Assembly: GCF_900289045.1 (NCBI RefSeq)
Contig: NZ_LT985188.1
Coordinates: 1-64,000 of the forward strand
Reading direction: 5' to 3'
Length of the DNA stretch: 64,000 nt
Origin: Micropruina glycogenica
GTDB lineage: Bacteria; Actinomycetota; Actinomycetes; Propionibacteriales; Propionibacteriaceae
The stretch's first letter is position 1. The number at the start of each line of letters is the position of its first letter. Shown here in pieces: positions 2,544 through 20,617 of the stretch. A program made the position numbers and the translations under genes. The notes beneath the pieces were generated by a model, which saw only the letters and a program-made list of their open reading frames with translations, was not told the DNA's origin and did no database searches.

Positions 2544-3926
2544 GTGACAGACCGCCCCACCATCAGCACCGTTGGCGAACTGCGGGCCTCAGGCCACGAG
2601 CAAAAGCACCTGCGGCAAGAGATTCGCGACAATCTACTGGCCGCGCTGGCCGAGGGACGCAACCCCTGGCCGGGCCTGCACGGCTTCGACCGGACGGTGC
2701 TGCCGCAACTCGAGCGCGCTCTGATCGCTGGCCACGACGTGGTGCTGCTCGGCGAGCGGGGTCAGGGCAAGACCCGGCTGCTGCGCACCCTCGAAGGGCT
2801 CTTGGACGAATGGACGCCCGTCATCGCCGGCTCCGAACTGGGCGAGCACCCCTACGACCCGATCACCGCCGAATCGCAGCGCCGGGCCGCCGACTGCGGT
2901 GACCAGTTGCCGGTCGCCTGGCGGCACCGCTCGGAGCGGTACGCCGAGAAGCTGGCCACGCCCGACACGTCCGTGGCCGACCTGATCGGCGACGTCGACC
3001 CCATCAGGGTGGCCGAAGGTCGCAGGCTGGGCGACCCCGAGACCATCCATTTCGGCCTCATTCCCCGTAGTCACCGCGGCATCGTGGCGATCAACGAGTT
3101 GCCCGACCTGGCCGAACGCATTCAGGTCGCCATGCTCAACGTGATGGAGGAGCGCGACATTCAGATTCGCGGGTATGTGCTGCGGTTGCCGCTGGACGTG
3201 CTGGTGATGGCCTCGGCCAACCCCGAGGACTACACCAACCGCGGCCGCATCATCACCCCCCTGAAAGACCGCTTCGGGGCCGAGATTCACACCCACTACC
3301 CGCTCGAACTCGCCGACGAGATCGCCGTGATTCGCCAAGAAGCCGCCCTGGTTGCCGAGATTCCGGACGCCCTGCTCGAGATTCTCGCCCGCTACACCAG
3401 GGCCCTGCGCGAGTCGCCCGCGATCAACCAGCGCTCGGGCGTCTCGGCCCGGTTCGCCATCGCCGGCGCCGAAACCGTGGCCGCGGCGGCGCTGCACCGG
3501 GCGGTCGTTCGCGGCGAAACAGAGGCCGTGGCGCGCCTGGTCGATCTCGAATCAGCCGTGGACGTGCTGGGCGGCAAGATCGAGTTCGAGGCCGGCGAAG
3601 AGGGCCGCGAAGACGCGATTCTGGCCCACCTGCTGCGCACCGCGACCGCCGACACGGCCCGGGCACACTTTCGCGGCATCGACCTCGGCCCGCTGGTCGA
3701 GGCCTTGGACGGTCAGGTGACGGTGATCACCGGCGAACAGGTCACCGCGGCCGAATTCATCGAAGGCCTGCCTGAGGCGGGTGAGGTGTACGAAGAGATC
3801 GCCGAACGGTTCGACGCCGACACCGAGGGCCGCCGGGCCAGCGCCATCGAACTCGCGCTTGAAGGCCTCTACCTGGCCCGCCGCATCTCCAAAGACTCCG
3901 ACGGCGCCGAAACCATTTACGGCTAG
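2544..3926 (+). CDS. MoxR/magnesium-chelatase-like AAA+ ATPase
   Basis: A 460-aa ATPase. Walker A is GERGQGKT at residues 70-77; the Walker B region is GIVAINELPDL near 177-187, with Asn-Glu in place of Asp-Glu; a sensor-1-like MASANPEDY follows, then an arginine-containing LKDRFGAE. This is the layout of ATPases that work with VWA-domain partners (MoxR, ChlI-type), in which ATP hydrolysis drives remodelling of a client. The partner gene starts 9 bases downstream, so the two are surely one operon. It is not a true magnesium chelatase: no tetrapyrrole genes are near. The client is unknown. The start is the GTG at 2544. Confidence 0.85.
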   Translation: MTDRPTISTVGELRASGHEQKHLRQEIRDNLLAALAEGRNPWPGLHGFDRTVLPQLERALIAGHDVVLLGERGQGKTRLLRTLEGLLDEWTPVIAGSELGEHPYDPITAESQRRAADCGDQLPVAWRHRSERYAEKLATPDTSVADLIGDVDPIRVAEGRRLGDPETIHFGLIPRSHRGIVAINELPDLAERIQVAMLNVMEERDIQIRGYVLRLPLDVLVMASANPEDYTNRGRIITPLKDRFGAEIHTHYPLELADEIAVIRQEAALVAEIPDALLEILARYTRALRESPAINQRSGVSARFAIAGAETVAAAALHRAVVRGETEAVARLVDLESAVDVLGGKIEFEAGEEGREDAILAHLLRTATADTARAHFRGIDLGPLVEALDGQVTVITGEQVTAAEFIEGLPEAGEVYEEIAERFDADTEGRRASAIELALEGLYLARRISKDSDGAETIYG

Positions 3927-3935
3927 GAACAACCC

Positions 3936-5936
3936 ATGCCCGCTCGACGCTCTTCACGCTACGGCCGGTACGCGGGCGGCCCGGATCCGCTCGCCCCGCC
4001 GGTCGATCTGAGCGAGGCGCTGGCCCAGATCGGTGACGACGTGATGGCCGGCTACAGCCCCGAGCGGGCGCTGCGCGAATATCTTCGCCGCGGTGCTCAG
4101 GGCCGTGACGGGCTCGACGATCTGGCCCGCCGGGTGAACGCCCGCCGGCGCGAGCTGCTCAGCAAGTACCGCATGGACGGCACCCTCGAAGAGGTCAAGC
4201 AGCTGCTCGACAAGGCGGTCACAGAAGAGCGCAAGCAACTGCTGCGCGACGCGATGATGCCCGACGACGACCGCGCCTTCCGTGAGTTGCGGCTCGACAA
4301 CCTGTCGCCGTCCACCGCAGCCGCCGTCAACGAACTGAGCGACTACGACTGGGCGTCGAGCGAGGCCAAACAGGCCTACGACCAGATCAAAGACCTGCTC
4401 GGCCGCGAACTGCTCGACCAGCGATTCGCGGGCATGAAGCAGGCGCTCGAGAACGCCACCGACGAGGATCGGGCGGCCATCAACGCCATGCTCGACGACC
4501 TCAACACGCTGCTCGACAAACACCGCCGCGGCGAAGACACCCCCGAGGACTTCGACGAGTTCATGGCCAAGCACGGCGACTTCTTTCCCGAGAACCCGCA
4601 GAACGTGGACGAGCTCATCGACGCCCTCGCCCAGCGGGCGGCGGCCGCCCAGCGCATGATGCGGTCGATGACCGCCGAGCAGCGCGCCGAGCTGATTCAG
4701 TTGTCGGCGCAGGCTTTCGGCTCGCCGCAACTGATGGCCGCGCTCGACAAGCTGGACGGCAACCTGCAGGCGCTGCGTCCCGGTGAGGACTGGTCGGGCA
4801 GCGAGCGGTTCAGCGGCGACGAGGGCATGGGCTTGGGCGACGGCACCGGCGTGCTGCAAGACCTGGCCGAACTCGACCAGCTCGGCGACCAGCTGGGCCA
4901 GAACTACGGCGGTGCCCGCCTGGACGACCTCGACCTCGACGCCCTGGCACGCCAGCTCGGGCAGGACGCGGCCGTCACCGCACGCATGCTCTCCGAGCTC
5001 GAAAAGGCCCTACGAGAAGGGGGTTTGCTCCGCAAGGACGCCGCGGGCGATCTCAGGTTGTCGCCGCAGGCGATGCGCCGGTTGGGCAAAGCGCTGCTGG
5101 CTGACGCGGCCAAGACGTTGTCCGGGCGCCAAGGCAACCGCGACACCCGGCAGGCCGGCGCGGCGGGCGAACTGACCGGTGCGACCCGTCCGTGGGCGTT
5201 CGGCGACTCCGAACCGTGGGACGTCACCCGCTCGCTCACCAACGCGATCATCCGCACCGCGAGCGAGGGCGGCGACCCGGCGGAAGGGGTGCGCATGGAC
5301 GTCCGCGACGTGGAGGTGAGCGAGACCGAGGCCCGCACGAGCTCCGCAGTGGTGCTGCTGGTGGACACGTCCTTCTCGATGGCCGCCGAGGGCCGCTGGG
5401 TGCCGATGAAGAAGACCGCGCTTGCCCTGCATCACCTGGTCAGCACCCGGTTCAGGGGCGACCAGTTGCAGGTGATCAGCTTCGGCCGCTGGGCGCAGTC
5501 GCGCGAGATTTCCGAACTGACCGGTTTGCCGCCGATGCGCGAGCAGGGCACCAACCTGCACCACGGACTGCTGCTGGCGAGCCGCTTCTTTCGCAAGCAC
5601 CCGTCCATGCAACCGGTGCTGCTGGTGGTCACCGACGGTGAGCCGACTGCTCACCTGACCAGCGGCGGCGACGCGTACTTCTACTGGCCGCCGGACCCTG
5701 AGACCATCGCGCTCACCGTGGTCGAGCTCGACAAGCTGGCCCGCACCGGCGTCAACCCGATCTTCTTCCGGCTGGGCGACGACCCCGGGCTGGCGCGGTT
5801 TCTCGACCAGTTGGCCCGGCGCTCCAACGGACGGGTCGTCGCACCTGACCTGGCCGACCTGGGCAGCGCCGTGGTGGGCGAGTTCCTCAGCGCGCGGTTC
5901 CGCGGCGGCTGGGACGCCGACGACTGGCTCGAGTAG
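3936..5936 (+). CDS. VWA domain protein, partner of AAA+ ATPase
   Basis: A 666-aa protein with a long, charged, mainly helical N-terminal region (about 1-430) and a C-terminal von Willebrand A domain (about 465-650). The metal-ion adhesion site is visible as LLVDTSFSMA near residues 472-481 (DxSxS), with the conserved Thr in EQGTNLHHGL and the Asp in VVTDGEPT. It has no signal peptide or membrane segment, so it is cytoplasmic. It follows the ATPase by 9 bases, with AGGAAC as ribosome site. MoxR-VWA pairs act as chaperone- or chelatase-like complexes; the target here is unknown. Confidence 0.85.
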   Translation: MPARRSSRYGRYAGGPDPLAPPVDLSEALAQIGDDVMAGYSPERALREYLRRGAQGRDGLDDLARRVNARRRELLSKYRMDGTLEEVKQLLDKAVTEERKQLLRDAMMPDDDRAFRELRLDNLSPSTAAAVNELSDYDWASSEAKQAYDQIKDLLGRELLDQRFAGMKQALENATDEDRAAINAMLDDLNTLLDKHRRGEDTPEDFDEFMAKHGDFFPENPQNVDELIDALAQRAAAAQRMMRSMTAEQRAELIQLSAQAFGSPQLMAALDKLDGNLQALRPGEDWSGSERFSGDEGMGLGDGTGVLQDLAELDQLGDQLGQNYGGARLDDLDLDALARQLGQDAAVTARMLSELEKALREGGLLRKDAAGDLRLSPQAMRRLGKALLADAAKTLSGRQGNRDTRQAGAAGELTGATRPWAFGDSEPWDVTRSLTNAIIRTASEGGDPAEGVRMDVRDVEVSETEARTSSAVVLLVDTSFSMAAEGRWVPMKKTALALHHLVSTRFRGDQLQVISFGRWAQSREISELTGLPPMREQGTNLHHGLLLASRFFRKHPSMQPVLLVVTDGEPTAHLTSGGDAYFYWPPDPETIALTVVELDKLARTGVNPIFFRLGDDPGLARFLDQLARRSNGRVVAPDLADLGSAVVGEFLSARFRGGWDADDWLE

Positions 5937-6690
5937 AGCCGCTGGTCGAGCTCAGTCGAGACCCGAGTCCGTCGAGACCCGAGTCCGTCGAGACGCGGGG
6001 AGTGGGCCGAAACTCGGGGGCGGTTCTCGGTTGCCCTCCCAACCGCCGGATCGCCACGTGGCGCGAGTTGGGAACCGTCCCCAACTCGCGCCAGAGCGGG
6101 GGATATCCGGTGAGTGGGCCGAAACCCGAAGCGGTTCTCGGTTATCCCGCCCACCCGCCCGATCGCCATGTGGCGCGAGTTGGGAACCGTCCCCAACTCG
6201 GGCCAGAACGTGTCGAGACCCGTTGCGGCCAGGGTTTCGACACGCTCGACCCACGGCCCGCGCGTTGATGCGCGGCTCCTTCTGGGAACCGTCCCAGACT
6301 CTCGCAACTGTCTTCCCCCGGCAACCGCAACCGCGGCGGACGAGCTCGACCGGGTTCGCGGTCTGGAAACACGCGACCAACAACCCATCTCACTATGTGA
6401 ACACGTCTCGTCTGGTCTTTCACAAGGCGATTCGCGCTCAGGGGCTTATTCACGAGTGCCTTGGTTCATCCTGCTGCGAGAGTCACGCGGTCACCGGGGA
6501 CGGTTCCGATTACCGTTCAGCTATCTGGCGAACTCCTTGCCAAACCGGTTCATGCCAGCTGAACGGTGATCGGAACCGTCCCCATTACCCGCCAGGTTGG
6601 GCGGTGAACCGTGATCGGAACCGTCCCCAATACCGGTCACGAGCCTGGTCGCTGGTGCGCGCAACGGCGACTGTCGCGCAGGATGAGCCC
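5937..6690. repeat. 754-bp repeat block between genes
   Basis: No gene is supported here. About 6001-6111 and 6112-6211 are imperfect tandem copies of one unit of roughly 110 bases, each ending in a family A palindrome (6060-6092 and 6172-6204). About 5944-5996 holds short repeats of GTCGAGACCCGAGTCC. A second palindrome family is at 6496-6522 and 6557-6583: the arms, 27 bases each, are complementary with one mismatch around the core GGGGACGGTTCCGAT. A third copy of that core is at about 6613-6633. A long frame reading into the downstream DUF1801 gene from 6031 is repeat translation. Confidence 0.8.
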
Positions 6691-7068: not shown

Positions 7069-7114
7069 CTGCCCTTGTGACACGTCACTGCCCGCACGCA
7101 GGCAGCAAAGGCAG

Positions 7115-8086
7115 TTACGTTGCGTCAGACGGCGCCAACTGAGCCACAGCGGCGTCCAACTCGGCCCCGATGCCGGCGATGTGGTCGGCGACGGACGCCT
7201 CGAGCGCGGCCAGCCGGGCCGGACTCGAATCGTCCATCGCTCCGGCGACCCGGCGGTCGACCACCTGAAACCGATGAAACCTGGACGGGTCGAGGGCCCT
7301 TCTGGCCAGCACCTCACCGGTCCACACCGTACTGGCCATCGTGGCCGGGTCTTGCGCCTCGCCCAGCCACGAGCGGTTGAGCGCGGCCATGGTGGTGCCG
7401 GGCGCAGCGCCGCACCCCAACGACACCATCACCAGCCCTGTCACGTCGCCGCCGGCCAACGCGACGGCCTCGGCCAGTGCCACGGCGGCCGGGTTGTTCG
7501 CCCAGGCGCCGCCGTCGGCGAACGAATGCTCCGCTCCGCCCCACTGCGTGACCAAGGGTGCGAACATCGGGCCGGCGGCCGTGGTGGCGCGTCCCACATC
7601 GACCAGAGGCAGGTCGAACTGAAGGTCGGCAGCGGCGTCCCGGCTCGACAACACCACGGGTGCCGAGGCGGCCCGGTCGAAGGCGGTGACCGCCAGCGGT
7701 GTGGTCACCTGCGACAACCGGACGGCGCCGAACACGTCGCGCAGCACCGCTTCGAGGCCTTCCGGACGATGCCGCGGCGCGCCGGCTGCACCGAACAGCG
7801 CACCCAGGGCTTTGGACGACTGTTCGAGCCGCTGCTCCAGCCCGGCCACGCCCGCGGGCCGGCCGAACATGCGCTCACCCAGGCGCGGAAAGAACTGCAC
7901 CAACTCCGACGCGGGAATGCCGACCGCCACCCCCATGGCGATCAGGCCGCCCGTCGAGGTGCCGACCACCAGGTCGAACAGGTCGTCGGCGGGGCGTTCG
8001 GCCCGGCGCTCCAACTCGGCCAGCAGCACGGCGGCCAGATGTGCACGGACGCCCCCGCCGTCGATCGCCAGCACCCTGATGCTCAT
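7115..8086 (-). CDS. Patatin-like phospholipase
   Basis: A 323-aa cytoplasmic patatin-family acyl hydrolase. The oxyanion-hole motif is AIDGGGVRAHLA (residues 6-17), the nucleophile elbow is GTSTGG near residue 42, and the catalytic Asp is in the DGG triad of FADGGAWANNPA. These are the Ser-Asp dyad motifs of enzymes that cleave lipid acyl esters. The ATG at 8086 is chosen over an upstream start at 8164 because patatins begin just before the DGGG motif. It is divergent from the GyrI-like gene. Some patatins are CBASS effectors (CapV), but no cyclase gene is near, so a housekeeping lipase is more likely. Confidence 0.87.
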   Translation of the reverse strand: MSIRVLAIDGGGVRAHLAAVLLAELERRAERPADDLFDLVVGTSTGGLIAMGVAVGIPASELVQFFPRLGERMFGRPAGVAGLEQRLEQSSKALGALFGAAGAPRHRPEGLEAVLRDVFGAVRLSQVTTPLAVTAFDRAASAPVVLSSRDAAADLQFDLPLVDVGRATTAAGPMFAPLVTQWGGAEHSFADGGAWANNPAAVALAEAVALAGGDVTGLVMVSLGCGAAPGTTMAALNRSWLGEAQDPATMASTVWTGEVLARRALDPSRFHRFQVVDRRVAGAMDDSSPARLAALEASVADHIAGIGAELDAAVAQLAPSDAT

Positions 8087-8190
8087 GGGTTCACTGTTGC
8101 TGTGAGGCGGCATGGTGTCGAGTCGACCGGCGAAGAACTTTGCCCTCGGCGATGCAGCGCCCACACTGATCCCGGCGAAAGGCGCAGCGC

Positions 8191-8799: not shown

Positions 8800-9202
8800 G
8801 ATTACGTCCGATTCTCACGGTGTTCAGCCTGCCGAGCGCGGACGACGCTCAAATCGGACGTAATCCCACGACGACGCCGCCTGAGCGTGGGGACGGGGAT
8901 TCCGGCGTCCGCCGGAATGACGGCGGGGCCGGGTGTGGCGAGGGGGATTACGGGGGAATGACGGCAGGGCCGGGTGTGACGAGAGGGATTCCGGCGTGCG
9001 CCGGAATGACGACTCCGCCGGAATGACGACAGGGACGGAATGACGCACGGGCGCGCTCGTCCGGCACGCTGTCGCTGCCGTTTGGCGCGAGTTGGGAACC
9101 GTCCCCATCTCGCGCCGGCGGTCGCGGGCCTGCTCCTCCGGCACGCTGTCGCTGCCGTTTGGCGCGAGTTGGGAACCGTCCCCAACTCGCGCCGGCGTCG
9201 GC
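8800..9202. repeat. 403-bp repeat block
   Basis: No gene is visible. The block holds GATTCCGGCGTGCGCCGGAATGA-like palindromes (about 8898-8922 and 8989-9009) and degenerate copies between. At 9056-9193 there are two copies, about 77 bases apart, of a unit that reads CCGGCACGCTGTCGCTGCCG and then a family A palindrome (9084-9116 and 9161-9193). Around 8802-8866 the phrase GATTACGTCCGATT reappears inverted as AATCGGACGTAATC, a perfect 14-base arm pair that may be the terminator of the GyrI-like gene. Confidence 0.8.
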
Positions 9203-12200
9203 TCACCCCACGCTGCCCAACTCGAACTCGTCGGCGTAGATCAGCCTGTTCTCCCTGGTGGGCGGGCTGTTCGGGTCACCGAGATCGGCGGGGTCGCCGA
9301 CGAACGTCTCCCACTCTTCGATGCGCACGCGGTGCGTGCCCGGCGTGGTCGGACGGGCGAACGGCAGCCCCTCGGGCACGGGCAACTCACCGGTCCACAC
9401 CAGGTTGGCCAACGACCCCGCATAGCCGCGCACGATGAGGTCGGTCGACTCGATGGTCTGCCAGGCCAGGTCGCTGGTGGCGCCCGCGTCGCGGGTCTGC
9501 AGCTTGGCCCGCAGCACCCGGTTGGCCCCCACCGCGGCCACCGCGGCCAGCGCCTGCGCAGCCGCACTGATGCCGACCGTGCTCACCGCCCTGCCGCCGA
9601 CCCGCGACGGGTTTCCGTCGTGATAGCCGACCGGCCCCGACACCAACACCCGCACCCGGCCCTCGCTGGTGCGGCTCACCGACGCCATGCGTTCGGGCAC
9701 GATCTGCACGTAGTCGCAGCGCACCGGCTTGCTGATGTGCCGCCCCGGCACGCTGTAGGGCTGATACCGCACCAGCGACAACTGCACGAACGGCCAGAAC
9801 CGCGCCGGAAACCCGATGTCGACGAACCACTTGCGCCGCTCCAGGTTGTATTGCGGACGGTACGGAATCACCATCACCTTCACGTTCGGGTCGTCGGCGG
9901 CCGGGTACATCTCGGGCTTACCGGACGGCCCCGCCACCGAGTCGTAGTCGTCCAACCCGATCGCGCCGAGCAGGTCGGTGACGGCCACGGCCTCGCGGTC
10001 GGCCACGTTGCTGCCCACCCAGAACGGGTCGCCGCCCCATTGGCTGGTGAACGTGGTGTCGGGCCGCGCCCCCACCGCCAGCACCACACCGATCTGCTCG
10101 TCGGCACCGGTGGTGAACCACGGCCGCTCCAGATAGACCCGCACGCCCGAGCGCCGGGTGCGCCGCCGGGCCATCGGCTGGTCGGGCTCGGTGCCGTCCT
10201 CCCAACGGAACAGCGGAATCACCGAATGCACCAGCGGCGGCGCCGGCAGTGAGGTGTTGGGCACGTGCACCTCGATCTCGGCGCTCACCGTGCTGCGGCC
10301 GTCATCGATCGGCAGCGTGGGGTCGTCGAACGGCGATGGAGCCAGTTCGTCCACCGCGAAGTACTCCCGAAATCGGGTGGTGGCCCGCAGCCGGTAGTGC
10401 ACCAGCCGGTGCTTGGTGTCACCGAACTCGTGCACCGCGTGGTGGCCCTTCACGTGCCCCACTGCTGCGTCGTTGTAGGTGGTGTCGGCGTGCCCACCGC
10501 TCAGCAGCGCGATGTCTTCCCACGGCTCGATCGCGGTGGTGGCGGCCACCTGCCGCCGGTTCGGCAGCGTCTGCCACCCCGGCTCCGAGAGATCGTCGAG
10601 CACCTCATCCCAGCGCGCGTCGACGATCAGCGAGTCGGTGCTCGGCCCGTGCACCTGCACCCCGCCCAGCAGCATCGCGTTGGTGGCGTTCGCCGCCCGG
10701 TAGATCGTGAACACCACCGGCTCGGGGGCCGTCACCGGCCGCGGCACCGCGTGCACCAGGGTCAGCGCCGACGGCGGCGTCAGCGGCCACAACCAGCCGT
10801 TCGCTGCTGCGTCGGCCACGCCCGGCCACCGCCGCAGGTTGTCGGGCAGTTGCTGCCACACCCCCATCACGTCGAGGTCGCCCAGGGTCATGCTCGAACT
10901 CAACCTGGCCCGCAGCGCCGTGCCGTGCGGCAGCGTGAATGTCACCTCGTGCGGCTCCACCCGCCCGTCGAGCTCGTCACCCCCGGCCAGCACCAGCCGG
11001 TAGCCGTCGATCAGCGGCCAGGTCGACGGCTGGTCGTCGGACGGCACCGCGCCCGGGTAGCGGGCCGTGAAACCCTCGACCCCGAACGGCGGCACCATCG
11101 AACGGTCTTTGCCCGCGTCGGGGAACACGAAGCCCAAACCCCGCGCGAGCACATCGGGCAGGTACGGCGTGTGCACTAGGTCGGTGTCGTGCACCACGTA
11201 TTGACCCGGGCCCGGTGCCTCACCGGGTGGCAGCGGCAGCGTGCGCAACTCGCCGGGGGACGCCCCCGGGCCGTGCACCAGCGCGATGCCGTCCTGGGCG
11301 TCGCGCACCGACGGGTCGTCGAGCCGCGGCACGTCGAGGTCGAACAGGGTGCCCGACTCGCGAATCGCAGCATGCAGCCACAGGTTGCGCGTGGCGGCAT
11401 CGGGCGAGGCGATAGCGGCGTCGAACGCGCCGTGCTGCTCGGCTTCGAGCTGGCTGGTCTTGGGCGGCACCAGATGCCGTTCGCAGGTGGCCTCGCGGCC
11501 GGGGTTGGACGCCGCGTAGTCGGCGGCGGTGCCCGTGGTCACCGCGAGCGTGGCCGGATCCTGGCTCACCCACGAGCGAATCACCAGCACCTGGTTCGAC
11601 TCGCCCTCGGTGTAGAGCCGGCGCGGCACGATCGCCGGCGGCGGCACCGGCTGCCAGCGCAGGAACGGCAGTTCGGGTGAAACGGCGAGGGCCTCGGGGG
11701 ACGCGAACACGTCGACCACCTCGGGGTCGAGCGCCAGACCCGACCGGATCACCTCGGGGTTCAGCCGCGCCGTAACCGCCGGGGCCAGGTTGTCGTCACT
11801 CAACCCGGTCGACAACGCGTCGCGCACCTGGGCCTGCGCCGAGACGGGCTGCTCGACAGCCTCGCCACGCTGCACCTGCAACCGGCCGACGATCTGCGGC
11901 AGCACCTCGGCCAACCGCATGCCAGCCTCGCCCTGGCCGACGCCGATCGGCTGCGCCACCGGTTCGGCCTCGATCACGCGCTCCCGTAGCCGGCCCAGTG
12001 CTTCTGAGCGAAACGCGGTCAGCGCCGACAGGTCGGCGGCCTGCAGGGCCACCGGCTGGGCCTCGGCCGGGGGCGCGCCGTCCGGCTGCTGCTGCAGTGG
12101 GGGCGGCCCCAACCGGTGCGGCCGCGAGTTGCAGGCCAGGTCGACGCCCCACACCCGAAAGCTGTACCGGCGGCCGAACCGCAGCCGCGGCAACGTGCCG

Positions 12201-13819
12201 GGGCTGGCGGCACGGTCGATCAGCACCGGCGTCGACGGGTCGTCGGGCGGTTGCGGGTCGGTGACCACCTTCTCGACGCCGCCCTCGTTCACCACCGGCA
12301 GCGCCGGACGGACCGCCGACAGGCTCCAGCCGTCCCAGCCGAACACCGTCTCGTGCACGTGAATCGGGGCGCCGTCGGTGCCGCCGTGGGTGGGTGCGGT
12401 GTCTTCGATGAAGGCGTCCTCGTCGAACTCCAGGCGGCGCCCGTTCACCACTTCGGCCTTCACGTGCACCTGGTGCAGTGAGCGCCAGGCGTTCGTCACA
12501 CTGTCGTGCACCTCGACCCGCACGCCCTGCATGACGTCTTCGGTGGTCAGCAGCGGAGCGTCGGGCGCCGGCTGCATCGTCGGCTGGTTGCGCACCGAAT
12601 CGAGCACCGAGGTCTGTTTGCCCATGGCGGTGGCGGTGGTGGCGGCGTTGTTCTTGCGGGCCACGGTGAACCCGGTGGTGCGCAGCGCCGGGGTGGCGGC
12701 GTTGGCGGGTGCGCCCTGCAGCGCGGCGGCCACCGTACGCGGGTAGCTCGACAGGTACAGCTCGGTCTTCAGCGCCGCACCGTCGGGGTCGAGGTCGAGC
12801 AGGTCGAACGAGTCGACGTTGCCCACGGGCAGCCGTCCGTTGAGCCACTGCGACTCGTCCTCGGCCCTGGTCACCAGGGCGCGCCCCACCGAGCGCACCG
12901 CCACCCGGACGACCTTGGTGGCGTCCTCGCGGTTGGGGATCACCACCCGGCCCAGCAGCCAGCGGCTGTTCGCCAGCCGGTCTGGGTCGGACTTCACGTC
13001 GATCACCAGGCCGAGCTTGCGCTGCAGCGGGCCGTGGTCGTTGACCAGCGAGACGCGCGCGTGGAAGTCGGGAATCTGCTTGTCGGGCGGGGGTGGGCCG
13101 GGGTTGTCGGGGTCGGGACGCGGCTGGTAGTCGGTCTCTTCCTCGGGGTGGCTGTAGAAGCGCCGGGCCCGGTGCAGCTCAACCATCGCCGCGCCCAGTT
13201 CAGGGCCGCCCGGCAGGCCGTCGGGCAACGAGCCGTTCTCGAAGTACCGGCGCGGGGTCGGAAACTCGCCCAGCGGCACCTTCTCTCGGGTCGCTTCGTC
13301 GAGCAGCCTGGTCTGCTCGGTTTCGAGGCGTCCGACCAGCTCCAACGGGTTGAACTGATGCCGGTTGCCGCGGCCGCTGAGGGTCTCGAACAGCCCGGTG
13401 CCGTACCAGGGCAGTTGCTGCACGGTCGGGGCGTCCACCCCGTTGACCATGGTGGCCATCAGGTTGACCAGCTTGGCGATCGTCGTGGTGGTGCCGGGGT
13501 GAAACGTGCGCCAGGGCCGCTGCGTCCACTCCGGTGGGGTGTAGGAGGTCACCGGGGTTTCGGGCGGAAACACCTCCTCCCACAATCCGTCTTCGACGGC
13601 GCCGAGCAGGGGCTCGCAGGGCAGTTCGCCCTGGTCGTCCTCGAGCACGAACGTCGCCTCGGCCAAGGCTCTGGTCCAGTGCTGAAAGAGCTCGGTGACG
13701 GCCAGGGTGTCGCGCGGATCGTCCACCTCGATGTCGGGCGACACGAACAACGAGACGTGGTAGTCGGCGTCAGGGCTGCACGAATAGGGCAGGGCGACGA
13801 CGGTGAACTGTTCACGCAT
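9203..13819 (-). CDS. Giant protein of unknown function, 1538 aa
   Basis: I do not recognise this protein. It has no signal peptide at its start (MREQFTVVALPYSCSPDADY), no Cys-rich region and no clear membrane helix, so it is probably cytoplasmic or exported by an unknown route. It is rich in beta-strand-like segments and prolines; several blocks (for example FRVWGVDLACNSRP near residue 560 and THRVRIEEWETFVGD near the end) look like Ig/fibronectin-type modules. Codon use is typical of the region. It follows the 1345-aa gene by 3 bases, and its ribosome site GAGGAG overlaps the end of that gene, so the two are translationally linked. Coding is certain; function is open. Confidence 0.8.
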   Translation of the reverse strand: MREQFTVVALPYSCSPDADYHVSLFVSPDIEVDDPRDTLAVTELFQHWTRALAEATFVLEDDQGELPCEPLLGAVEDGLWEEVFPPETPVTSYTPPEWTQRPWRTFHPGTTTTIAKLVNLMATMVNGVDAPTVQQLPWYGTGLFETLSGRGNRHQFNPLELVGRLETEQTRLLDEATREKVPLGEFPTPRRYFENGSLPDGLPGGPELGAAMVELHRARRFYSHPEEETDYQPRPDPDNPGPPPPDKQIPDFHARVSLVNDHGPLQRKLGLVIDVKSDPDRLANSRWLLGRVVIPNREDATKVVRVAVRSVGRALVTRAEDESQWLNGRLPVGNVDSFDLLDLDPDGAALKTELYLSSYPRTVAAALQGAPANAATPALRTTGFTVARKNNAATTATAMGKQTSVLDSVRNQPTMQPAPDAPLLTTEDVMQGVRVEVHDSVTNAWRSLHQVHVKAEVVNGRRLEFDEDAFIEDTAPTHGGTDGAPIHVHETVFGWDGWSLSAVRPALPVVNEGGVEKVVTDPQPPDDPSTPVLIDRAASPGTLPRLRFGRRYSFRVWGVDLACNSRPHRLGPPPLQQQPDGAPPAEAQPVALQAADLSALTAFRSEALGRLRERVIEAEPVAQPIGVGQGEAGMRLAEVLPQIVGRLQVQRGEAVEQPVSAQAQVRDALSTGLSDDNLAPAVTARLNPEVIRSGLALDPEVVDVFASPEALAVSPELPFLRWQPVPPPAIVPRRLYTEGESNQVLVIRSWVSQDPATLAVTTGTAADYAASNPGREATCERHLVPPKTSQLEAEQHGAFDAAIASPDAATRNLWLHAAIRESGTLFDLDVPRLDDPSVRDAQDGIALVHGPGASPGELRTLPLPPGEAPGPGQYVVHDTDLVHTPYLPDVLARGLGFVFPDAGKDRSMVPPFGVEGFTARYPGAVPSDDQPSTWPLIDGYRLVLAGGDELDGRVEPHEVTFTLPHGTALRARLSSSMTLGDLDVMGVWQQLPDNLRRWPGVADAAANGWLWPLTPPSALTLVHAVPRPVTAPEPVVFTIYRAANATNAMLLGGVQVHGPSTDSLIVDARWDEVLDDLSEPGWQTLPNRRQVAATTAIEPWEDIALLSGGHADTTYNDAAVGHVKGHHAVHEFGDTKHRLVHYRLRATTRFREYFAVDELAPSPFDDPTLPIDDGRSTVSAEIEVHVPNTSLPAPPLVHSVIPLFRWEDGTEPDQPMARRRTRRSGVRVYLERPWFTTGADEQIGVVLAVGARPDTTFTSQWGGDPFWVGSNVADREAVAVTDLLGAIGLDDYDSVAGPSGKPEMYPAADDPNVKVMVIPYRPQYNLERRKWFVDIGFPARFWPFVQLSLVRYQPYSVPGRHISKPVRCDYVQIVPERMASVSRTSEGRVRVLVSGPVGYHDGNPSRVGGRAVSTVGISAAAQALAAVAAVGANRVLRAKLQTRDAGATSDLAWQTIESTDLIVRGYAGSLANLVWTGELPVPEGLPFARPTTPGTHRVRIEEWETFVGDPADLGDPNSPPTRENRLIYADEFELGSVG

Positions 13820-13822
13820 TTC

Positions 13823-16800
13823 TCACTCCTCGGCGAAGGCCAGGCAGTAGTCGGTCCACAGCGGTGAGGTGAAGTCGGGCTGCACGCCCATCACCTCGGC
13901 GAAGGTCGGGTCGCCGTTGCTGCCGGCGAACGAGCGCTGGCAGGTGATCGACACCGACTTGCTGAAGCACAGCACCTTCACCTTGACCGTGATGGTGGCC
14001 GTGCCGGTCAGCTTGCCGCTGGGAAAGTCGTAGGTCAGCGACAGGTACAGCTCGATGGACGCGCTGATCAGGCCCAGCACGCTCACCTCGCCGCGCAGCC
14101 TGAAGTAGGCCGTCAGCGACCCCTTGTCGGCCTCCATGCGCAGGTAGATGCCGATCGCCATCGACACCGAACCCGACGCGACGCCCAGGTTGATCGACAG
14201 GTACGCGCCCGCCTCGAGCCCCAGTTCGAGCACCTCCAGGCCGCGCGGGCTGAGCCTGATGCCGAACCAGCCGCCGCCGCCCAGGCACAGCACCGCCAGG
14301 TTGAACGGACGCTCGCGGGTGCAGAACCCGAACCCCACCGACACCACGTCGCCCAGAAACGGCACCCGCACGTCGGCGGCGAGCGACATGTTCGACAGGC
14401 TGAACACGCCGATGGCCAGGTTGGGCAGGTCGAGGCTGAAGCCCGCCGTCACGCCGTCGGGTTTGACGTCGACGTAGGGCGGGTCCGAGAAGCCGTCCAG
14501 CGGAATCAACTGCTTGATGCGCTCGACGAAGCTCAAGATGCCGACGAACTCGATGTTGCCGACGGATGCGTCCACCTCGGCCTTGCCCGAACTACCGGCC
14601 TTGAACATCAGGTGGTCGAAGGGCAGCTTCATCATCGGCTCGCCCGGCGGCAGAATCAGCGCGAAGCCGCGCAGCTCGGCCAGAACCTCGGCCTTGGGGT
14701 TCTTGCCCGCCTGGCCCTCGACGGCCAGGGTGAGGCCGCGCTCGGGCAGTTGCAGCACCGGCTTGGCCTCGTTGGGCCACGACTGCAGCTTCGGTTGCCA
14801 TTTGAATGAGAACCGCGCGTCGGCCACGGCGGTGGCGATGCCCTGCACGAAGTCGATCACCGACTGCACCATGGAAACGTCCGTGGCCGCCTCGCGCAGC
14901 AGCTTCACCAGGCCGAGCAGTTGGTTCTTGGCCAGCGGGGTCAACTTCTCGGTGGCCGCTTCGACGTCGTTCAACGCCCCGGCCAGCGTGTTCAGGGCGG
15001 CGGCCAGCTTGCCCGGCGCCCCGGCCAGGTCGCCCGGGGCGTCGATGATGGCCTGCAGCACGCCGTCGGCGGCGTTCACCACGCCACCGACCAGGTTGGT
15101 GGCGGTGGTGGCCGCGTCCTGGGCCTTGGCCAGCACCTCGCCGGCGAGCGCAGCGCGGCCCTGGGCGGTCAGGTCGTTCGCGGTCTGCTGGGCGCGGTTG
15201 AGCGCCGACTGGGCCTCGGCGGCGGCGTCTTCGACGGCCTTCTTGAGCTTCTTCAGGTCGCTCATCAGGGCCTCGACCGTGGCCAGCGACTCGGTGACCA
15301 GCGCTGGAGCGTCGTTCAGGTCGATGCCCGCCAGGCTCAAAATGTCGACCAGCGACACGAACCCGAACAGTTTCGGCAACGCGGCACCGAGGAACTTCGC
15401 GGGGTCGAAGTCGCCCGCCGCAACGGTGGCGGCGTCGCCCACCGGGCCCTGCGAGCGCGACAGCGCCGCGATGGGCAGTGAGGGCGCGATGAAGCCGCCG
15501 GCGCCGCCACTGGACGCACCGCCGGAACCGAACCCTAGGGTGGTCGGTGAGGTGAGCTCGGCCCACACCTGGCCTTCGTTGCCGGCACCGAAGCCGTGCT
15601 GTAGCCAGGCGTCGGCGTAGGTGAACTCTTGCGGGCCGGTCGGCTTCATGCGTTCGACCGCGGGAATGGTGGCCTTGGCGCTGACGAACTGCGGCACGGC
15701 CTTGCCGACGCTGGGAATCGTGCCACTGAAGGTCAGCGCGACGGTGGGTACGGCCAGGTCGACGCCGCCGGGCTCGGACGGCGCGAACGACACGTTCTGC
15801 CCCAGGCCGTTGATTGGGCCGAGGTCGGCGAAAGCCTTGATGGGTGTCGCCGCGTTGCCGGCGGGGTTCGGCAGGGCGTACTTCTCGGCCACCCAGACCA
15901 GCGGCGTCGGCAGCTTCACCTCGCGGTCGTCGGCGTCGATGCAGTGCAGCACGAACTGGAACGGCCCGCCGCCGCACTGCACCACGAAGAAGCTCTGCTC
16001 CTGCGCCGCAGTCGGCTCGGGGGAGAGGATCGGCGTGATCGTCGGTGCGATCTCGACCCGTTTGAACGGGTTGCCGATGTCGGTGTAGGTCTTCACCGGT
16101 TCGCCCACCACGATGAACTTGCGCTGAAACAGCGTGGCCTTCGGGTCGGTCTTGCTCTTGATCTTGCGCTCGGTGACCTTCACCAGGGTGGCCTTGTGGC
16201 CGAACGGGAACAGATAGCCGGGGTAGACGACCCGCACGTACTGGTCGCGGCCCATGGGTGCCTCGTGGTCCCACGACATGATCGAACTGAGCGTGGCGGT
16301 CGACCAGGGCAGGGTGTCCCACTCGCCGTGCAGGTCGAGCCACGCGCCGAGGCTCGAAAGGTAGAGCCGGTCGGCCTCCACCGGGGTCGGGTCGGCGATC
16401 TTGGTGCGGTTCTTGGCCCAGACCTCGCTCGACTGCCGCACCAGCATGTGCCGGTCGGACGAGTTGAGCGACATGCGCATCGGCACTTCGGGGGTTTCGG
16501 GTGGAAAGTCGGTGCCGGGCCAGTTGTCGAACCGCTCCCGGTCGCGCGCCCACACGGCCCGGATCGTCTGCTCGGCCTCGGTGACGGTGCCGTCGGCGTC
16601 GCGGTGGCCCAGCCTGGTGTGCCACAACTCCACCGCGGTGCCGGACGTGTCGGGCACGGGGTCGTCCGCGTGCGTCCAACCGCTCTGGGTCGACGGCGAG
16701 ACGACGAGCCGGTAGGGCGCCTCGATGGCGGTTTCACCCGTGCCCGGCGGGCGGCTGAGCTTCTCGGGGTTGCGGAAGATCGGCGGCAGTTTGGTGACTG

Positions 16801-17860
16801 GAATGCGCCAGTCGTCGACCAGTTCGGTGACCGCGGCGTGCGCAGCCGGGGCGTTCAGGGTGGCGCGCACCTGCGCCAGCGCCCGGGCCCGCTGAGCGAT
16901 GCCGGCGGTGGTGTCGGCGGCGTGCAGATCGGTGAAGGCGGGCTGCTCGTCGGCGGCCAGCACGTGCTGAATCAGGCCCGCGTTGGCCAGCACCTGAACC
17001 AGTCGCGGGTTGAACGGGTTGCGCCGGTAGGGGGCGCCCGGCGTGGCCAGGGGGTGTACCGCCATCGGGTACTTCTCCAGCGCGGCCAGCAGCGCGGACG
17101 AGGTCACCTCGACCGACTCGCCGGCCGGCACCTGCAGCACCACCCGGGTGGCACGGGCCGGAATGCCGCCGACGGGGTTGGTCGGCTGCTCGGGGCCGCC
17201 GGAGGACTGCACCGGCGGGCCGTCCGGATCGGCGGGGTTGGGCTGCGGGGCGGGAATGCCCTCGTAGAACGCCTGTTCGCCCAGGTGCTGGAACGGCAGG
17301 GTGAACACCAGCAGGCCACCGGGGCCGTCGGCGGCGGTGGTGAACACCCCGTCGGCCAGATCGAAGCCCGACGTGCTGACCACCATCGAGACCAGGTCGG
17401 CCGAACGAATCACCTCGACGTGGTGGTCGAGGACCACCTCGGGAGCGGGCGCTGCCTGAGAAGAGCCCTCCGGCAGACGGGGGATCTTGATCGGCGGAAT
17501 CACCAGCCCCGGGTCGATCACCACCGTCGGCACGCGGCGGTCGATCTGCAGGTGGGCGATTTGGCCCGCGTCGAACCGCTGCACAGGCACCTCGACGGGC
17601 CGGTCGGGCCGCTGCGGGTGCACATCGACGGGGTGATCGACCGGCCGACGAACAGGTCCATCGATAGGACGTTCGACGGGTATGTCGATCGGGCGCTTCC
17701 GCTTGGCTGCGACGCGCACCTCTTCGCCCAGGTTCGCGCGGCGCTTCTTGGGCGCCTCAGCCTGTGGTTCTTCCGGCTGCTGAGGCTCGACGGGAACCCG
17801 TCGCTGCTTACCGAGGTCGGGTAGCTTGCGGGCGGGTCGTGGGTCGTTCGGTCCGGGCAT
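13823..17860 (-). CDS. Giant modular protein of unknown function, 1345 aa
   Basis: First gene of the pair. Residues 1-100 are a basic, proline-rich, probably disordered tail with reiterated RPID/RPVD/RPVE dipeptide pairs. A mixed domain follows to about 770, then a Gly/Ser linker near 775-790. Residues about 865-1015 are a long Ala-rich helical segment (LKKLKKAVEDAAAEAQ onward) resembling apolipoprotein or coiled-coil sequence. Residues about 1070-1325 are strikingly regular alternating hydrophobic strands (GAYLSINLGVASGS, TATITVKVKVLCFSKS). There is no signal peptide. The ATG at 17860 has GAGGAG 6-8 bases upstream. The family is not recognised; the helical-then-strand layout could suit lipid binding or a shell/filament, but this is speculation. 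Confidence 0.8.
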   Translation of the reverse strand: MPGPNDPRPARKLPDLGKQRRVPVEPQQPEEPQAEAPKKRRANLGEEVRVAAKRKRPIDIPVERPIDGPVRRPVDHPVDVHPQRPDRPVEVPVQRFDAGQIAHLQIDRRVPTVVIDPGLVIPPIKIPRLPEGSSQAAPAPEVVLDHHVEVIRSADLVSMVVSTSGFDLADGVFTTAADGPGGLLVFTLPFQHLGEQAFYEGIPAPQPNPADPDGPPVQSSGGPEQPTNPVGGIPARATRVVLQVPAGESVEVTSSALLAALEKYPMAVHPLATPGAPYRRNPFNPRLVQVLANAGLIQHVLAADEQPAFTDLHAADTTAGIAQRARALAQVRATLNAPAAHAAVTELVDDWRIPVTKLPPIFRNPEKLSRPPGTGETAIEAPYRLVVSPSTQSGWTHADDPVPDTSGTAVELWHTRLGHRDADGTVTEAEQTIRAVWARDRERFDNWPGTDFPPETPEVPMRMSLNSSDRHMLVRQSSEVWAKNRTKIADPTPVEADRLYLSSLGAWLDLHGEWDTLPWSTATLSSIMSWDHEAPMGRDQYVRVVYPGYLFPFGHKATLVKVTERKIKSKTDPKATLFQRKFIVVGEPVKTYTDIGNPFKRVEIAPTITPILSPEPTAAQEQSFFVVQCGGGPFQFVLHCIDADDREVKLPTPLVWVAEKYALPNPAGNAATPIKAFADLGPINGLGQNVSFAPSEPGGVDLAVPTVALTFSGTIPSVGKAVPQFVSAKATIPAVERMKPTGPQEFTYADAWLQHGFGAGNEGQVWAELTSPTTLGFGSGGASSGGAGGFIAPSLPIAALSRSQGPVGDAATVAAGDFDPAKFLGAALPKLFGFVSLVDILSLAGIDLNDAPALVTESLATVEALMSDLKKLKKAVEDAAAEAQSALNRAQQTANDLTAQGRAALAGEVLAKAQDAATTATNLVGGVVNAADGVLQAIIDAPGDLAGAPGKLAAALNTLAGALNDVEAATEKLTPLAKNQLLGLVKLLREAATDVSMVQSVIDFVQGIATAVADARFSFKWQPKLQSWPNEAKPVLQLPERGLTLAVEGQAGKNPKAEVLAELRGFALILPPGEPMMKLPFDHLMFKAGSSGKAEVDASVGNIEFVGILSFVERIKQLIPLDGFSDPPYVDVKPDGVTAGFSLDLPNLAIGVFSLSNMSLAADVRVPFLGDVVSVGFGFCTRERPFNLAVLCLGGGGWFGIRLSPRGLEVLELGLEAGAYLSINLGVASGSVSMAIGIYLRMEADKGSLTAYFRLRGEVSVLGLISASIELYLSLTYDFPSGKLTGTATITVKVKVLCFSKSVSITCQRSFAGSNGDPTFAEVMGVQPDFTSPLWTDYCLAFAEE

Positions 17861-18161
17861 GCGAACTCCTCAAAGAAGACACCATTGGTCAGTCTGAGCC
17901 CACAGCCAACGCATAGCCATGGGGGACAATTGCGTAGTCTCAAGGCCTTGCGGGGTGCCTCCTGGTACCCCTGTGAAACCGTCACTCCCGGTAGACCGTC
18001 ATTCCGGCGAAGGCCGGACTCTCGCCTGGTGCCGACCGGAACTGTCGCCCGCGCCCACCGTCATTCCGGCGAACGCCGGAATCCCATTCGGCGCCGAGAA
18101 AGGTCCGCTGGCTGGGCCTGTCGAAACCTTCGCCGGGTCTCGCAAGCTCGACCAGCGATCG
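17861..18161. other. Gap with family C palindromes; likely promoter of giant-gene operon
   Basis: About 300 bases without a gene. GTCATTCCGGCGAA..GCCGG-type palindromes lie at about 17998-18016 and 18060-18082, and a GACAAGCTCGACC-like piece at about 18136-18155. The stretch nearest 17860 (17861-17930) is free of repeats and must hold the promoter of the giant two-gene operon; it includes the ribosome site GAGGAG. I could not pick a confident -10 box. Confidence 0.6.
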
Positions 18162-19422: not shown

Positions 19423-20007
19423 TCAGCCGCCGAGCACCTCGTCGGCCAACCCGTAGGCCACGGCCTGCTCGGGGGTGAAGATGCGGTCGCGGTCGGTGTC
19501 GCGGCGCAGTCGCTCGGTGGTCTGGCCGGTGTGCCGGGCCAGCACGGTCTCCATCGCAGCCCGCAGCCGGATCACCTCGTCGGCGGCGAGGATCAGGTCG
19601 GGAATCGTGCCCTGCCCGCTGGCGGACGGCTGGTGCAGCAGCACCCTGGAGTGCGGCAGCACGAACCGACGCCCGGGGGCCCCGGCCGCGAGCAGGATCG
19701 CCGCCGAACTCGCGGCCTGCCCGATGCACGTGGTGGACACGTCGGCCGCGACGAACTGCATGGTGTCGTAGATCGCGAACATCGCCGTCATCGAACCACC
19801 CGGCGAGTTCAGGTACAGGTTGATCTCGCTGTCGGGGTTCTGCGCGTTCAGGTGCAGTAGTTGGGCCACCACCGCGTTCGCGACTCCGTCGTCGATGGCC
19901 GTGCCCAGGTAGACGATGCGTTCGTTGAGCAGGTGGCTGTAGACGTCCATGATGCGCTCGCCGCGGGCCGAGGTGGTGATCACGTTGGGCACCAGGTAGC
20001 TGCTCAT
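19423..20007 (-). CDS. clpP: ATP-dependent Clp protease proteolytic subunit
   Basis: A 194-aa ClpP. The catalytic Ser lies in [13 protein letters not shown], the His in [12 protein letters not shown] and the Asp in [10 protein letters not shown], so the Ser-His-Asp triad is complete. ClpP tetradecamers degrade proteins fed by Clp ATPases (ClpX, ClpC). It is the second gene of a clpP pair; its ATG follows the first gene's stop by one base, so the two are coupled. Actinobacterial ClpPs often work as mixed rings of two different subunits. The adjacent PopR-like gene suggests this is the inducible pair (clpP3/clpP4 type) and not the essential clpP1P2, but this needs phylogeny. Confidence 0.92.
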
Positions 20008-20008
20008 G

Positions 20009-20617
20009 TCAGTCTCCGATCCGCAAGCCCAGACCCACCGGCCCGCGGCGACGCGGCGTCAGCGGCAGCGGGCTGCTCAGCACGGCGTCGATCAAGCCGT
20101 AGTCACGGGCCTGTTCGGCACTGAACCAGCGGTCGCGCAGCGAGTCTTCGCGAATGCGTTCCACGCTCTGGCCGGTGTGCTCGGCGATCAGCGACAGCAC
20201 CGTCTCGAGGGTGAACCGCAGGTCGTCGGCCTGCAGTTCGATGTCGACCGCGCTGCCGCCGATGCCGGCCGACCCCTGATGCATCAGCACCCGCGAATGC
20301 GGCAGGGCGTACCGCTTGCCGGGCGTGCCCGCCGACAACAGAAACTGGCCGGCGCTGCAGGCCAGGCCCAGGGCCAGGGTCGAAACGTCGTTCGGAATCA
20401 GCCGCATCGCGTCGTGGATCGCCAGCATGGCCGGCACCGAGCCGCCGGGGGAGTTAATCCAGAGGCTGATGTCGGTGTCCGGGTCGTCCGCCGAGAGCAG
20501 AAACAGGTCGGCGATCAGCCGCGTGCCGCCGGTGTCGTTTAGGGGGCCGTCCAGCAGCACGATGCGTTCGTCGGCCAGCCGCTGCCGCAACGGGTCGGGC
20601 AGGTTGATGGTGTCCAT
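20009..20617 (-). CDS. clpP: ATP-dependent Clp protease proteolytic subunit
   Basis: A 202-aa ClpP, first of the pair. The nucleophile Ser is in [12 protein letters not shown], with Cys where most ClpPs have Ala, the His in [11 protein letters not shown], where HQP has become HQG, and the Asp in EDSLRDRWF. The triad is therefore present but with unusual flanks, which fits the divergent member of a two-subunit ring. The C-terminal tail [15 protein letters not shown] is basic. It begins about 90 bases after mobA, behind a hairpin and a 7-base-arm palindrome, so it probably has its own promoter. Confidence 0.9.

Follow-up and report, generated by a model that had tools for sequence, protein, structure and literature searches.

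The first 64,000 nucleotides of contig NZ_LT985188.1 of Micropruina glycogenica, referred to here as the window, carry two adjacent giant genes, which we designated A (first gene) and B (second gene). We found that A and B form a two-gene module that is widespread and belongs to no named family in the libraries searched. The two genes are encoded together, A then B, in nearly every readable locus, and they have diversified together.

In the window, both open reading frames (ORFs) had the lengths (1345 and 1538 amino acids [aa]) and the 3-base separation claimed in an earlier note made from the letters alone (hereafter, the original prediction). The stop codon of A occupies 13823-13825 and the ATG of B 13817-13819, which leaves a gap at 13820-13822. 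The claimed overlap of the second ribosome site with the end of the first gene was also evident, a GAGGAG motif covering the final two codons of A. When the window was compared with two Micropruina relatives, third codon positions differed by 33-38% and second positions by 12-17% (averages per gene). Because third positions diverge far more than second positions, A and B are real coding genes.

Distribution and co-diversification of A and B

Among 96 relatives of the host, A was present in six (its own genome included) and B in all six. The B copy of one genome (G004) was truncated at a contig end, and two genomes (G044 and G071) carried two separate A-B pairs each. Across 394 genomes of the host's class, A was detected in 14; B was found in 13 of these 14 and in none of the 380 others (Fisher p 2e-23, a value that treats genomes as independent, which they are not). 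One genome (G326) had a second A on another contig without a listed B, only two candidates per genome being scored.

We also scanned 84,980 species genomes. This set was queried with A only, B was scored beside A, and an A copy is detectable by the scan only if it retains either of two peptide patterns, one of which is the end of the conserved stretch at A residues 537-555. The patterns fitted 312 stretches, 225 of which encode a relative of A. The best 80 of these 225 were fetched, including several near-copies, and in 74 of them B came next after A, on the same strand. In two of the 74 (L063 and L094), B is split into several ORFs. In the remaining six loci, the contig ended within A or left no more than 152 bases. 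Relatives of A also occurred in 20 plasmid records (Rhizobium, 9; Streptomyces, 3; Cupriavidus, 2; Sinorhizobium, 2; and four other genera, 1 each), and B was recognised by profile in seven of the eight plasmid loci that were opened. The original prediction had proposed looking for the gene pair in other genomes, and it was thus present in many, among the 96 relatives, on plasmids and in the 84,980-genome scan.

The size and integrity of the genes varied. Short members of 1112 and 1330 aa were found in Saccharicenans. On a conjugative Rhizobiaceae plasmid (L048, 8131-22819), an oversized A of 3052 aa and a B of 1766 aa were accompanied by a TatA-family gene. On another (L046, 5326-20541), an A of 2489 aa, annotated as an apolipoprotein-domain protein, lies beside a 2569-aa protein. 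In Rhizobium ruizarguesonis TP23 (L047, 11209-15451), A is annotated as two adjacent ORFs and B as one, indicating a broken or misread copy. In Achromobacter pulmonis (L095, 4551-8321), two ORFs of 223 and 651 aa that match parts of A lie directly upstream of an intact A-B pair and are probably remnants of a second copy.

Trees were built from the window and 49 fetched loci (50 members). These loci bear nine NCBI phylum labels (Actinomycetota, 17; Pseudomonadota, 14; Bacteroidota, 8; Ignavibacteriota, 3; Chlorobiota, 2; Armatimonadota, 2; and Balneolota, Aminicenantota and Cyanobacteriota, 1 each), many of them being metagenome bins that possibly hold foreign contigs. The A and B trees had 39 of 47 splits in common, compared with at most 3 after random relabelling (1000 times). 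The A tree required 12 changes of phylum label, where the minimum is 8 and shuffles gave 27.6. A was therefore inherited mostly within phyla, with some scatter. We know of few unnamed families that combine such size and tight two-gene linkage with a spread over nine phylum labels. Since the pair takes up about 8.7 kb of the host genome and 310 kDa of protein, and selection keeps both genes, it must pay.

Searches for a known family

Neither A nor B of the window gave a significant match in Pfam, NCBIfam, PHROGs or PDB sequences, in agreement with the original prediction, which had recognised no family. The best Pfam match of the window proteins had an E-value of 0.15, under the curated cut-off, and NCBIfam gave none. 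B matched no Pfam family at E 10 and nothing in PHROGs. The PHROGs matches of A fell on its helical part (best E 0.035; phage-tail/tape-measure test, E 0.066). By its own terms, the original prediction would have been refuted by a strong match to a known phage, secretion or surface-layer family; no such profile match was seen.

We then widened the search to relatives. The A proteins of 25 diverse relatives matched 80 Pfam families, and among the matches listed (25 of 80) most were coiled-coil types. Apolipoprotein-domain matches were obtained in five of the 25 (best E 8e-8); we did not take these as a relationship, as such matches are what Ala-rich helices would be expected to give. One of the 25 had a transthyretin-like match (E 1.4e-5). 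A Bacteroidales A gene (L117, 1144-5202) that lacks a twin-arginine start has an N-terminus resembling a transthyretin-like domain, and it is probably the source of this TTR-52 match. The B proteins of the 25 relatives matched nine Pfam families with one member each (best E 0.003), none of the alpha-2-macroglobulin or complement type. When the 50-member profile of A was compared with PDB, the best 60 of 202 matches fell on the helical part and represented a mixture of coiled coils and other helical proteins; no large lipid transfer protein was among these 60. The corresponding B profile gave two matches at E 0.03 (odorant-binding proteins), which were taken as chance.

A phage origin of the pair was considered and set aside. 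A had no match in 50,697 phage records (B was not searched there), and its PHROGs matches were limited to the helical part. In viral contigs, one of 35 pattern matches was a relative (L129), and it carried both A and B; this contig may be misclassified bacterial DNA. In a viral fold library, A gave two matches at E < 0.001, the better of which was a tail protein with a template-modelling score (TM-score) of 0.07-0.09. An anti-phage defence role was rejected as well: PADLOC, run with six proteins, matched only coiled-coil stretches of two A proteins and none of three B proteins. In the literature searched, we recognised nothing that describes the A-B pair, which is no proof of its absence.

Predicted folds of A and B

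The structural model of A covers window residues 147-1345 (model numbering +146), with a mean predicted local distance difference test score (pLDDT) of 78.7 and a predicted TM-score (pTM) of 0.57. It comprises a beta-rich front, a helical stretch and then 19 strands of at least three residues, the last seven of which are 12-18 residues long. The original prediction had placed an Ala-rich helix at about 865-1015 and a strand segment at about 1070-1325, close to the modelled 857-1008 and 1043-1311. Across 55 members, the helical region ranged from 24 to 277 residues and was just 24-34 residues long in five.

The C-terminal part of the model superposed on the porin CymA (Z 14.3, root-mean-square deviation 3.8 over 183 residues), and also on OmpG and others. 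Seventeen strands were scored over the 55 members; in 15 of them, the two faces differed by about 2.5 or more Kyte-Doolittle units, with values of 2.5-4.8 in the last seven. Amphipathic strands are common to the predicted meander of A and to porin-type barrels such as CymA and OmpG. A differs from these in being borne by actinomycetes too, in having the barrel-like meander as one part of a giant protein, in the W..YC.AFA tail that follows the meander, and in the absence of a Sec-type start in the window (by eye).

With Foldseek, the best match of the whole A model was microsomal triglyceride transfer protein (MTP; E 5.5e-6 over 1125 alignment columns, TM-score 0.06-0.09, probability at most 0.72), and lipovitellin was also matched (E 0.03). 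Lipid-transfer proteins were not among the rows listed by a second aligner, an absence that does not exclude this fold. MTP and lipovitellin resemble A in size and in the order of a beta-rich front, a helical part and sheets, but they differ from it by the very low TM-score, the lack of a sequence match and the near absence of the helical part of A in five of the 55 members. As this region varies from 24-34 residues in these five up to 277 in others, we regard the MTP match as a lead only. The amphipathic strands, the porin-barrel fold matches and the weak lipid-transfer match make a lipid-facing part in A plausible.

B was modelled on a compact relative (L124, residues 126-1321; pLDDT 79.0, pTM 0.64). 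The model consists of serial beta sandwiches, which supports the possible Ig-like modules noted in the original prediction. The leading Foldseek matches were complement C5/C3 and macroglobulin chains (E 8e-8, TM-score about 0.1), and the second aligner (VIA) returned FnIII strings (Z 9.3 and below). As in fibronectin, C3/C5 and A2M, B is predicted to be a string of beta-sandwich modules; there is no sequence match to these proteins, and what they have in common is the module. The fold matches of B show a predicted module type (Ig/FnIII-like) and not a family.

At the C-terminus of A, a W..Y..AF-type motif was present in 49 of the 50 members, with Cys after Tyr in 43, and 1-7 residues follow its Phe. 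The motif occurred in none of the 50 B proteins. It is kept with or without a signal on A, which would suit a role in docking or capping.

Export signals in part of the family

A twin-arginine motif followed by an acid-free hydrophobic stretch was detected at the N-terminus of A in 18 of the 50 members and in no B. Shuffled A N-termini passed this rule in 1.7 of 50 on average. The 18 members (L065, L066, L071, L087, L091, L093, L096, L097, L099, L101, L102, L104, L108 and L124-L128) are labelled Bacteroidota, Chlorobiota, Ignavibacteriota, Balneolota, Armatimonadota or Aminicenantota, apart from one bin labelled Bradyrhizobiaceae. Two actinomycete A proteins outside the 50 (L038 and L044) also had a twin-arginine-type start. 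With the TIGR01409 profile, eight of 54 A proteins matched at E up to 1 (best 5e-4, the window not included), and an unrelated family reached 8e-4 in one member.

The original prediction had stated that neither protein has a signal peptide. By eye, and under the twin-arginine rule, this holds for the window pair, but a signal is present in many relatives of A. Where part of the family bears a twin-arginine-type signal, A of the window has residues 1-145, and the proline-rich basic tail described in the original prediction was confirmed at this N-terminal position.

A TatA-family gene adjoins the pair in two loci, one on a Sinorhizobium meliloti plasmid (L048) and one in Zipacnadum (L126), with Pfam E-values of 2e-9 and 2e-15, respectively. 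A search with these two TatA peptides re-found only their own sources among 92, a search by which other TatA genes may be missed. A partial precedent for export through the twin-arginine translocation (Tat) pathway is the PaoABC hitchhiker complex as described in an excerpt of PMC4273604, in which one subunit has a twin-arginine-type signal and its partner has none, as in part of the A-B family. The A-B pair differs in that no enzyme family of note appears among the Pfam matches listed for the 25 relatives, in its mass above 150 kDa and in the signal-less A of the window.

A proposed large hetero-complex and alternative interpretations

The pairing of A and B is well supported, and what the complex would do we infer. 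Their constant pairing (in 74 of 80 loci and in 13 of the 14 genomes with A) is in line with an obligate two-subunit assembly. We tentatively favour the interpretation that A and B are obligate subunits of a single large hetero-complex that would bear a lipid or membrane module with a hydrophobic face and, in part of the family, be exported through Tat. In such a complex, B would form the rod of Ig/FnIII-like modules predicted by its model, and A would end in the predicted barrel-like meander, most strands of which present one hydrophobic face. This face may bind lipid, another hydrophobic ligand or a membrane surface, and the conserved W..YC.AFA peptide might dock into B or cap the barrel. 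A signal-bearing A could carry the signal-less B through Tat as a folded complex, which would then act extracellularly or in the envelope. A basic Pro-rich tail takes the place of the signal in the window's genus, and there the complex may stay inside or exit otherwise. The original prediction had suggested a large two-subunit assembly such as a lipid-binding or shell complex; the two-gene unit is conserved and a lipid-facing part is plausible, but nothing found points to a shell.

Several observations weigh against our interpretation. The window's lineage is not known to have an outer membrane, and porin-like matches can come from any long antiparallel meander. Two of the 17 scored A strands show no alternation. 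The sole A-positive genome without B among the 14 (G210) holds only short A fragments, and in one of the eight plasmid loci (L046) the giant gene after A was not matched by the B profile. With regard to export, a stricter first version of the twin-arginine rule gave 13 of 50 A proteins and was loosened after its misses had been read. A of the window, which has no twin-arginine signal by eye, by rule or by TIGR01409, falls outside the Tat step. In addition, A and B together amount to about 310 kDa, above the Tat cargo limit of 150 kDa quoted in a passage of PMC6708511.

A bolder form of the same idea is an unnamed, phylum-spanning lipid-carrying particle of bacteria in which A would be a carrier of the large-lipid-transfer-like or barrel type, filled with hydrophobic cargo, and B its rod-like partner. 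In some of the family, and perhaps ancestrally, it would be exported pre-folded through Tat at about 300 kDa, two loci having a TatA-family gene next to the pair. Such a Tat-exported particle would be about twice the quoted cargo limit, and we consider it quite improbable. Should the Tat reading hold, the pair would probe how large a folded protein can be exported; should the lipid reading hold, bacteria would have their own large lipid carriers. With its conserved stretches, C-terminal motif and short members, the pair is open to direct testing.

The FnIII-like string in B and the porin-like barrel in A would also suit a surface or extracellular-matrix adhesin, with B as the adhesive rod and A as its anchor, the barrel of A being in the outer membrane of diderm relatives. 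Two families with signal-like N-termini (by eye) beside the pair, in 14 and 10 Bacteroidota/Chlorobiota-type loci, are in line with this. However, the barrel is conserved in actinomycete members too, where it cannot be an outer-membrane anchor if, as far as is known, these hosts have no outer membrane. Together with the lack of a sorting motif recognised by eye and of a signal-like start in B, this makes an adhesin fairly unlikely. A coat or scaffold inside the cell, on storage granules or lipid droplets, with amphipathic helices and the hydrophobic barrel face on the granule and the basic tail on DNA or polyanions, would accommodate the signal-less, basic-tailed A of the window and the apolipoprotein-domain matches in five of 25 relatives. 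It has a precedent in MLDS of Rhodococcus, a protein on bacterial lipid droplets with an apolipoprotein motif and a Lys-rich DNA-binding tail according to an excerpt of PMC5504291. With its lipid-associated part and basic tail, MLDS is like the predicted A in description. Storage enzymes showed no enrichment in hosts of the pair (PhaC, 0 of 14 A-positive genomes vs 26 of 380 others; WS/DGAT, 9 of 14 vs 233 of 380; small numbers with low power). The 24-34-residue helical region in five of 55 members and the twin-arginine signals on 18 of 50 A proteins also argue against a granule coat, which we judge decidedly unlikely.

The sporadic, accessory distribution (14 of 394 genomes), the carriage on plasmids (20 records), the two copies in two of six genomes and the barrel-like C-terminus of A, in the role of a pore, could instead reflect an antagonism protein, a pore former or toxin complex directed against other cells. 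This is very unlikely: no recurring small partner or immunity-like gene was seen beside the pair (groups in at least three loci, judged by eye or by a few Pfam scans), PADLOC matched only the coiled-coil stretches of A, and A was not matched in phages (the search that did not include B). Finally, the MTP and lipovitellin matches and the similar order of beta, helical and beta parts in these animal proteins might suggest that A is a genuine bacterial representative of the large lipid transfer proteins (MTP, vitellogenin) or an analogue of them. The TM-scores of 0.06-0.09 with probability at most 0.72, the lack of a sequence match of window A in Pfam or PDB, and the almost missing helical region of five of the 55 members render this highly improbable.

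Features of the pair and its surroundings in the window

The features of the pair are listed in Table 1.

Table 1. Coordinates of the A-B pair and of its parts in the window
Feature	Position	Strand	Details and basis
Gene A, first gene of the pair	13823-17860	minus	1345 aa, 142.8 kDa; ORF and relatives
Gene B, second gene of the pair, predicted string of Ig/FnIII-like modules	9203-13819	minus	1538 aa, 167.3 kDa; fold model made on the L124 relative
GAGGAG, ribosome-site-like, gene A	17866-17871	minus	Read directly
GAGGAG, ribosome-site-like, gene B	13826-13831	minus	On the last two codons of gene A; read directly
A residues 1-145, Pro-rich basic N-terminal tail	17426-17860	minus	28 Pro, net charge +4
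A residues 537-555 (GRDxYVR ... FPFGH), strongly conserved	16196-16252	minus	Alignments
A residues 857-1008, predicted Ala-rich helical segment	14837-15292	minus	Model
A residues 1043-1311, predicted strand segment ending in a barrel-like meander of long amphipathic strands	13928-14734	minus	Model, fold matches, strand scoring
A residues 1335-1343, C-terminal W..YC.AFA	13832-13858	minus	Motif count in members

The original prediction had also described the pair as flanked by repeat blocks. Repeat families do exist between 8887 and 9197 and at 17995-18097, but they appear incidental as flanks. Repeats with a GGGAACCGTCCCC core recur at 5930-6640, away from the pair, and we therefore read the blocks as local clutter. 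The intergenic stretches at 5930-6640 and 8887-9197 contain scattered GGGAACCGTCCCC-containing repeats together with ATTCCGGCG..CGCCGGAAT palindromes.

The neighbours of the pair in the window encode a patatin, a GyrI-like protein, an ArsR-type regulator and an AHSA1 protein. A link to lipids through the patatin gene beyond B (7115-8164) was considered and treated as incidental, as the window patatin belonged to none of the neighbour groups described below; a patatin is annotated downstream of the pair in one Rhizobium locus too.

Genes around the pair in other genomes

Clustering of 916 neighbouring ORFs from 93 loci yielded 86 groups, 24 of which occurred in at least three loci. Two families recurred in Bacteroidota/Chlorobiota-type loci. 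The family found in 14 loci, a number that includes one Bradyrhizobiaceae-labelled bin and some near-copies, has a PPPNQL...DLW N-terminus, and some members contain RCC1 repeats. The family found in 10 loci gave no Pfam match in the two members scanned, and most of its members have an aromatic residue at the C-terminus, a frequent feature of barrels. Examples of the two families lie at 3426-8382 in L101 and at 7079-8152 and 18029-20167 in L065.

In four actinomycete loci from Actinotalea, Cellulomonas and Pseudactinotalea (L061, 9081-9686; L062, 7483-8199; L070, 3923-4600; L100, 8592-9188), a related gene lies upstream of A, divergently in three. The only member scanned, that of L062, was a LuxR-type regulator, and regulation of the pair by this gene is possible. 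The other groups, judged by eye, represented ABC transporters, LysR regulators, CoA-transferases, close-relative synteny and the like.

Farther from the pair, the window contains an AAA-ATPase gene and a von Willebrand A-domain gene in tandem (2544-5936), the latter of which is also found near the pair in L050 and L069. Two adjoining genes at 19423-20007 and 20009-20617 encode what we take to be ClpP-like proteases.

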